From contig PWZA01000057.1 of NCBI GenBank assembly GCA_003567655.1, forward strand, positions 1 through 40,470: DNA of 40,470 nt, read 5' to 3'. This document shows, in pieces, positions 3,183-4,738 of this stretch; the stretch's first letter is position 1, and each line of letters begins with the position of its first letter. The stretch comes from Dehalococcoidia bacterium (GTDB lineage: Bacteria; Chloroflexota; Dehalococcoidia; GIF9; AB-539-J10). A program made the position numbers and the translations under genes. A model generated the notes under the pieces. The model was given only the letters and a program-made list of their open reading frames with translations, was not told the origin of the DNA and searched no databases.

Positions 3183-3773
3183 TCAGAGATCCGCAAAGAC
3201 CTGTGGGGCTATCTCCTTGACTATCTGCCGTATCTCGTCGGCGACAGCCCGGAACTCAGGAAGTGCTCGCTTCGATGTACGTAGCTTGATGATGTGGCGG
3301 ATCTCGCGGAAATTCCAGGTGCAGATTATCTGGGTCTCACAGGCGTTGGGAAGGACATAGCGGGCGATCTCCGCCTTGACTCCTCCATCCAGCAGGTCGT
3401 CGTAGGCCTGCCAGCACGAAAGCATCGCCTCTTGGAATCGCTGATGAGCGGCGGCATCATCCCTGATCTCGGGTGGCTCGACGTAACGTGGCTCACTTTC
3501 CTTGACATAACGCTGGCTTCTCTGGCTGTAACTGGCCAATCTGTGCCTGACAAGTTCATGGGTGAGGACGCGGCTGGCTCGTATGTAGAAAGTAGCGCAG
3601 GCGTGCTCGACCATCGACTCGTGTCCGATCTTCAGCCACTTCTCGATACGGTCGGGCGTACTGCCTGTCTTGTCCTGTGTATCCCAGCACAGCCTGCCGG
3701 CCGTCTCTATCAGCCTCTCGGAATCGGGGGTAACGGCAAGTAGCTTAACCTCTATATCGTAGCTATCGGGCAT
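3183..3773 (-). CDS. thyX: Flavin-dependent thymidylate synthase
   Basis: ThyX signature RHRLASYSQRSQRYV (RHRxxSxxxxSxRY), plus HACATFYIRASRVLTHELVRHR. Confidence 0.95.
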   Translation of the reverse strand: MPDSYDIEVKLLAVTPDSERLIETAGRLCWDTQDKTGSTPDRIEKWLKIGHESMVEHACATFYIRASRVLTHELVRHRLASYSQRSQRYVKESEPRYVEPPEIRDDAAAHQRFQEAMLSCWQAYDDLLDGGVKAEIARYVLPNACETQIICTWNFREIRHIIKLRTSKRALPEFRAVADEIRQIVKEIAPQVFADL

Positions 3774-3800: not shown

Positions 3801-3876
3801 TGGCGTCCCTGGAGGGATTCGAACCCCCGACCCGCTGCTTAGAAGGCAGCCGCTCTATCCACTGAGCTACAGGGAC
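3801..3876 (-). tRNA. tRNA-Arg (anticodon UCU), CCA encoded
   Basis: Reverse complement GTCCCTGTAGCTCAGTGGATAGAGCGGCTGCCTTCTAAGCAGCGGGTCGGGGGTTCGAATCCCTCCAGGGACGCCA folds as a cloverleaf; anticodon loop CTTCTAA gives TCT. Confidence 0.95.
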
Positions 3877-3929: not shown

Positions 3930-4049
3930 TCAGTCTTTGTGTGCCTGTTCTACGTGCTTCTGCCAGCACTCTTCATGCACATAGACGGCACATCTGGCGC
4001 AGTAGTAGATTCGGGCTCTGGCGTCTTTGTCACAGACGGGACATTTCAT
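3930..4049 (-). CDS. 39-aa zinc-ribbon-like miniprotein (not in the supplied ORF track)
   Basis: MKCPVCDKDARARIYYCARCAVYVHEECWQKHVEQAHKD*. ATG overlaps the FmdB stop codon (TGATG); two CxxC pairs plus CW..HV..AH. Confidence 0.65.
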   Translation of the reverse strand: MKCPVCDKDARARIYYCARCAVYVHEECWQKHVEQAHKD

Positions 4050-4294
4050 CAGTCACTACCTCCGCTGTCTGTTGCTCGTTTTGCCGATGCTGTGGCTTCG
4101 GATCTTCCTTCGCTTCCGCCTCTCGAGTCGGTGACATAGAACCCCGGTCCTTTGAACACTATGGGAACCGGGCAGAACACACGACGGGCAACTCCTTTGC
4201 ACTCGGGGCAATCGGCTACCGGTTGGTCATTGAAGCTCTGCCTCAGGTCAAACTGCCGTTCGCAGCTCAGGCATCGATACTGATAAGTAGGCAT
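4049..4294 (-). CDS. FmdB-family zinc ribbon regulatory-like protein
   Basis: MPTYQYRCLSCERQFDLRQSFNDQPVADCPECKG...FKGPGFYVTDSR is a classic FmdB/CxxC_CxxC_SSSS pattern. Confidence 0.9.
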   Translation of the reverse strand: MPTYQYRCLSCERQFDLRQSFNDQPVADCPECKGVARRVFCPVPIVFKGPGFYVTDSRGGSEGRSEATASAKRATDSGGSD

Positions 4295-4306
4295 GTATGC
4301 TCTCCT

Positions 4307-4606
4307 TTATTCCAGCAGAGGCGCTGTTTGCTCCTCTGAACTCTCTTCATCTGCAGTCTGGGTCTCAGAGACCTGTTCCTCCGCCTCCTGTGCCTCAGGT
4401 GTCTCTGTCTCCGAGGCCTGCACCTCTACCTTGCTCTCTCTTGGTATGAACTCGCCATCGAGGTTGACAGTACCCATCTCAAAGGGCGGCGGATGCGCCT
4501 GCACTACATGCTGGTCCCAGCAGTAGGCGTGCACAAAGGCACCACACGAGCAATGGAAAGCGACCCTGTCAAAGAGCAACGGGTTTCCGCATACGGTGCA
4601 GTTCAT
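4307..4606 (-). CDS. Small zinc-binding protein with acidic C-terminal tail
   Basis: MNCTVCGNPLLFDRVAFHCSCGAFVHAYCWDQHVVQAH, then a Glu/Ser/Thr-rich tail. RBS aggaggta upstream and a CIRCE-like element just 5'. Confidence 0.7.
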   Translation of the reverse strand: MNCTVCGNPLLFDRVAFHCSCGAFVHAYCWDQHVVQAHPPPFEMGTVNLDGEFIPRESKVEVQASETETPEAQEAEEQVSETQTADEESSEEQTAPLLE

Positions 4607-4622
4607 TTAAGTACCTCCTCGA

Positions 4623-4649
4623 TTAGCACTCTTGATATCGAAGTGCTAA
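4623..4649 (-). promoter_or_regulatory. CIRCE-like element (candidate HrcA operator)
   Basis: TTAGCACTC-TTGATATCG-AAGTGCTAA: matches TTAGCACTC-N9-GAGTGCTAA with one mismatch, 17 nt upstream of the ATG at 4606. Confidence 0.85.
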
Positions 4650-4738
4650 TTATAGCGCTCTGTGATGGTTTCAGCAAGCTTGCGATCTCACTTATTACTA
4701 TTATGGCCGATGCTAAACCGTTGTTGATACTGGCGCAT

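Follow-up and report, generated by a model that had tools for sequence, protein, structure and literature searches.

A predicted HrcA-controlled operon of a Ruc-type protein and two small RING-like zinc proteins in Dehalococcoidia

A minus-strand operon of a Dehalococcoidia bacterium is likely the third HrcA transcription unit of its genome and encodes a putative chaperone of the Ruc type together with two co-produced zinc proteins, P1 and P3. The operon is located in the window, a stretch of 40,470 nucleotides that represents contig C9 (PWZA01000057.1) of a 2.07-Mb draft genome (GCA_003567655.1). Judged from its operator and from the published properties of Ruc, it is probably an HrcA-regulated, redox-responsive holdase unit. 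The two RING-like proteins, probable partners of the Ruc-type protein, are new, as is a class-wide link between HrcA and ruc.

Results

Operon layout and promoter

Three genes are arranged head to tail on the minus strand and code for P1 (99 aa), an FmdB-family, Ruc-type protein (81 aa) and P3 (39 aa). P1 and the ruc-type gene are separated by 12 nt; the stop codon of the latter overlaps the start codon of P3 by 1 nt (TGATG). This tight packing bears out the operon of three small Cys-rich proteins described in an initial annotation of the sequence. The features are, from the promoter downstream:

4672..4677, minus strand: −35 hexamer TTGCTG (TTGnnn in relatives), 17 nt upstream of the −10 hexamer
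4649..4654, minus strand: −10 hexamer TATAAT, sharing the first base of CIRCE; from the sequence and aligned relatives
4623..4649, minus strand: CIRCE, the predicted HrcA operator, with one mismatch; one of three sites in the genome, conserved in relatives
4614..4619, minus strand: ribosome-binding site AGGAGG of P1; from the sequence, kept in relatives
4307..4606, minus strand: P1, 99 aa, N-terminal RING/PHD-like zinc domain and acidic disordered tail; from a 27-sequence alignment and AF2
4049..4294, minus strand: FmdB-family gene of the ruc type (81 aa) with zinc ribbon and hydrophilic tail; from TIGR02605, PF09723 and Cys positions equal to those of Mycobacterium tuberculosis Ruc
3930..4049, minus strand: P3, 39 aa, RING/PHD-like zinc protein, a tailless P1 paralogue; from a 13-sequence alignment, codon-position differences and AF2

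The operator reads TTAGCACTC-N9-AAGTGCTAA (4623–4649). The single mismatch noted before was confirmed, and the element is the sole match in the window at ≤3 mismatches, with a chance expectation of 0.01 per window. Its distance to the operon had been given as 17 nt; it is 16 nt from the CIRCE edge to the P1 ATG at 4606. Read on the minus strand, the last base of TATAAT is also the first of CIRCE, and TTGCTG precedes the −10 hexamer by 17 nt, so that transcription is expected to start inside CIRCE. By these hexamers the promoter is of the sigma-70 type. HrcA bound to the overlap would block transcription initiation.

Downstream of the operon, the same strand carries a tRNA-Arg(TCT) gene (3801–3876, minus strand) and thyX (3183–3773, minus strand), coding for a flavin-dependent thymidylate synthase (PF02511). 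ThyX is located downstream in several relatives of the genus too. Both genes are not claimed as operon members; a promoter-like site precedes the tRNA gene. A terminator was not found.

HrcA regulon and conservation of the operator

The genome encodes HrcA on contig C62 (PF01628, E 9.1e-44). The whole genome contains exactly three CIRCE sites at ≤3 mismatches, and a reversed-pattern control gave 0 matches. Beside the window site, CIRCE is located upstream of groES-groEL and at hrcA-grpE-dnaK, where it abuts the hrcA start codon. With only three sites in the genome, the window operon is one of three predicted HrcA targets and not a loose match.

The relatives named here are Dehalococcoidia metagenome-assembled genomes. 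P1 homologues were present in 37 of 60 relatives. CIRCE (≤4 mismatches) is located just upstream of P1 in all 30 fetched loci, the window's own included. Among these aligned loci, the −10 hexamer abutting CIRCE has the sequence TATAAT at 26 loci and TATACT at three others, and TTGnnn is placed exactly 17 nt from it in 28 of the 30. Named public Dehalococcoidia loci, which partly overlap with the genomes of the fetched loci, have CIRCE (≤4 mismatches) upstream of the first gene in 31 of 34 cases; L095, L097 and L099 were without it. A few copies have 3–4 mismatches. Genome G048 has P1 on one contig and ruc-P3 on another, and a CIRCE accompanies each; this speaks for P1 as an independent member of the HrcA regulon. 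HrcA regulon membership, proposed earlier for the window operon, is thus supported by the presence of hrcA and by CIRCE conserved at the orthologous operons.

At L156 (G046:C47:25000-27200), P1 has a CIRCE of its own and the next gene encodes an FmdB paralogue without the Ruc motif, a different arrangement from the other P1 operons seen.

In the order's other families, P1 is usually absent and CIRCE is located 31–89 bp directly upstream of ruc (15 genomes); P3 follows ruc in five of these. A class-wide sample comprised 58 loci with a Ruc-type gene, 21 of them with CIRCE at ≤3 mismatches within 500 bp. Outside the order, the same limits were reached by 16 of 51 Ruc-type genes, spread over many families. 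CIRCE scores at these genes were nearly all 0–3 or 7–9 mismatches. From these comparisons, CIRCE-ruc emerges as the core that recurs; in the order, P3 often follows it, and P1 is an addition typical of the window's family. A strict CIRCE-plus-ruc pattern over 400 genomes of the phylum matched in G036 only, a weak negative for other classes because the pattern required an ATG start and a gap of 15–45 nt.

Order-level relatives have a second FmdB-family gene that lies within about 400 bp of a further CIRCE and has its 3′ end towards the element (G036:C13, G039:C2, G042:C15, G050:C202 and G056:C1). These sites may be the ruc/groESL neighbourhood given for Chloroflexi (PMC7448276). Two genomes have a tandem pair of CIRCE-like elements with 2 and 3 mismatches, 45 bp apart (G042:C15:28452-28523, G050:C202:26514-26585), which suggests a double operator.

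The Ruc-type protein

The 81-aa protein scored 58.4 bits with TIGR02605 (cut-off 31.3) and 51.5 bits with PF09723 (cut-off 34.4). The former assignment to the FmdB family stands by both models, but is too broad: the window's genome has three further members, and Cys positions and motif make Ruc-type the more exact name. The zinc ribbon is C8-x2-C11-x17-C29-x2-C32, that is CxxC-N17-CxxC, and the protein has the motif VFKGPGFYVTDSR (FKGPGFYVTD; general form FKGxGFYxTD). Cys 8, 11, 29 and 32 and FKG occupy positions identical to those in M. tuberculosis Ruc (Rv0991c). Identity is 19 of 43 residues (44%) in the same register, the comparison being limited to the 43 residues readable from primers printed in PMC7448276. 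Residues 58–81 are hydrophilic; from relative to relative, the tail differs in both length and sequence, and its disorder is judged from sequence. A PDB sequence search with the window's Ruc protein gave no meaningful match.

Only the window copy among the genome's four FmdB-family genes combines the Ruc motif with CIRCE. The view that any FmdB paralogue would do was rejected, since the other three are without CIRCE and without the Ruc motif. By sequence, the middle gene is the genome's only Ruc-type member.

M. tuberculosis Ruc is repressed by HrcA and strongly heat-induced, and its gene is also activated by SigH. It binds a single zinc, becomes active against aggregation when oxidised, requires its disordered tail and promotes DnaK-dependent refolding; Cys-to-Ser mutants kept or gained function (PMC7448276). 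Ruc was present in 22 of 22 Chloroflexi surveyed, in some adjoining groESL, and Hsp33 was rare where Ruc is common (PMC7448276). The initial annotation had guessed at redox or unfolded-protein sensing or a chaperone accessory function. Homology of the middle gene to Ruc, for which redox regulation and HrcA repression were shown by experiment, lends this guess strong external support (PMC7448276). In the literature searched, no report of HrcA control of ruc in Chloroflexota was found, and nothing that combined CIRCE/HrcA with FmdB or a zinc ribbon.

The flanking proteins P1 and P3

Invariant ligands are C3, C6, C19, C21, H26, C29, H33 and H38 in the 27-sequence alignment of P1 and C3, C6, C17, C20, H25, C28, H32 and H37 in the 13-sequence alignment of P3. 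Both proteins share the cross-brace pattern C-x2-C ... C-x1-2-C-x4-H-x2-C-x3-H-x4-H. A homology search with P1 also picked up P3 copies, and by sequence the two are paralogous. Pairwise differences of P3 at codon positions 1, 2 and 3 amount to 250, 368 and 961, a skew that identifies the 39-aa ORF as coding. The AF2 model of P1 has a pLDDT of about 77–93 in residue blocks up to 60 and of 38–53 in the tail beyond; P3 reached 93. A conserved non-ligand motif covers P1 residues 40–53. The P1 tail is acidic and variable. In the genus, it often ends in a conserved (T)PLLE (window about 4307–4325), a possible C-terminal docking or degron motif.

For both proteins, no Pfam or NCBIfam family scored above its cut-off, and neither has a homologue that is characterised. 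The best Pfam match was C1_2 for P1 (14.6 vs 26 bits), and C1_2 (21.6 vs 26 bits) and Prok-RING_1 (18.4 vs 29.1 bits) for P3. The nearest structures in Foldseek were RING and PHD fingers, weak matches with best E values of 0.12 and 0.15. P1 and P3 are probably very short RING/PHD-like cross-brace zinc domains. The name zinc-ribbon proteins, applied earlier to the whole operon, holds for the Ruc-type middle protein; by their invariant Cys and His residues, the flanking proteins are probably of the cross-brace type. Their ligand pattern resembles that of Prok-RING, RING, PHD and C1 zinc fingers, from which they differ by scores below the model cut-offs, by the shortness of the domains and in that no ubiquitin pathway was seen. 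Their conservation with Ruc suggests that P1 and P3 are probably its partners. The layout of P1, a zinc domain with a hydrophilic disordered tail, is like that of Ruc, and from this resemblance a similar role is proposed.

Discussion

Proposed mechanism

Control of HrcA by GroEL and its relief by heat are features of well-studied HrcA systems. In unstressed cells, HrcA on the CIRCE over the promoter start would repress the operon. Heat or a load of unfolded proteins would titrate GroEL from HrcA, HrcA would lose activity, and groESL, hrcA-grpE-dnaK and the window operon would be induced together. The reduced Ruc-type product would be zinc-bound and idle. Oxidised at its four Cys, it would release zinc, bind unfolded proteins and pass them to DnaK. 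HrcA/GroEL control and Ruc biochemistry are transferred here from published work and general background, and the titration of HrcA by GroEL is a mechanism of other bacteria applied to this one. Since the lineage is probably an anaerobic one, the oxidant signal is uncertain. From co-regulation, co-occurrence and architecture, we hypothesise that P1 and P3 most likely serve in the same response as additional subunits, controlled by zinc or thiols, that bind clients or act as adaptors.

The Ruc-type protein may fill the place of Hsp33. Hsp33 (PF01430) was found in 0 of 20 genomes, the window's own included, and eight control genomes were positive. Its expected role is the same by analogy, with a zinc-bound Cys switch and an ATP-independent holdase delivering to DnaK; Hsp33 has no sequence relation to Ruc.

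Comparison with known systems

The operator sequence, its placement over the promoter start, the presence of hrcA and the sister sites at groESL and hrcA-grpE-dnaK agree with an HrcA/CIRCE regulon, but the predicted target lies outside the classical chaperone operons. M. tuberculosis Ruc has the same zinc-ribbon Cys positions, FKG position and hydrophilic tail, an HrcA operator at the promoter and likewise a genomic setting in which Hsp33 was not found. It differs in its activation by SigH, compared to a sigma-70-type promoter here, and in its demonstrated chaperone activity, which is predicted for the window protein. RING-like partner genes are not described in PMC7448276, whereas two extra zinc proteins are encoded in the window operon.

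McsA, a zinc-finger protein of the Firmicutes ctsR-mcsA-mcsB-clpC operon, is similar by description: it is small and rich in Cys, and its heat-shock operon is controlled by a repressor. Neither mcsB nor clpC adjoins the window operon.

Alternative explanations

A chance or relic palindrome without a role could account for the spread of 0–4 mismatches across relatives and for the three loci without the element. This reading has a negligible probability and was rejected: 0.01 matches are expected in the window, the genome has three sites, and control windows taken from the named public loci came no closer to the consensus than 5–8 mismatches. The position relative to the −10 hexamer is fixed, and distant families in which the operon is laid out differently have CIRCE upstream of ruc as well. 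This conservation makes a chance origin very unlikely.

The function of an HrcA-controlled operon could also be a different one. RING fingers serve as adaptors or E3-like factors in eukaryotes, and the same has been proposed for Prok-RING proteins. P1 and P3 might accordingly hand damaged proteins to proteases or to ubiquitin-like tagging, and they align weakly with RING, PHD, C1 and Prok-RING_1 models and with the RING structures of Pirh2, NOT4 and RNF165. Every fold match is weak, however, and the neighbours of the operon include no gene for a protease or a ubiquitin-like protein. The E2-like PF00179 was not found in ten genomes, a search in which no positive control rang and which is not decisive. 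Overall, this role is unlikely. Somewhat less probable is a zinc buffer, in which the three proteins capture zinc freed from heat- or oxidation-denatured proteins. All three are small and Cys/His-rich with invariant metal ligands, and their co-induction with chaperones is predicted, but the Ruc homologue is a shown chaperone with single-zinc stoichiometry (PMC7448276), and the conserved non-ligand motifs (FKGxGFYxTD and P1 residues 40–53) would be superfluous for a buffer. The family owes its annotation to FmdB, itself a putative regulatory protein, and small zinc fingers can bind DNA; even so, there is only a slim chance that the middle protein is a transcriptional regulator and that P1 and P3 regulate stress genes together with it. 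Ruc-type members come with no DNA-binding evidence, the direct biochemistry is chaperone activity (PMC7448276), and the Ruc-type motif sets the gene apart from the genome's other FmdB paralogues.

Significance

On the preferred reading, an HrcA-controlled Ruc-type chaperone unit, the control of ruc by HrcA published for M. tuberculosis would also operate in a deep class of Chloroflexota whose members are mostly uncultured, which suggests an old or repeatedly favoured link. Through regulation and synteny, P1 and P3, both small and uncharacterised zinc proteins, are linked with protein quality control. They may, as a tentative and rather doubtful extension, be founders of a minimal RING-like family of zinc-controlled chaperones or adaptors and form one redox/heat client-handling complex with Ruc; if so, HrcA would control a complete ATP-independent holdase module in Dehalococcoidia. 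In genomes in which Hsp33 was not found, the operon offers a concrete, testable approach to the question of how clients pass from small disordered zinc proteins to DnaK.
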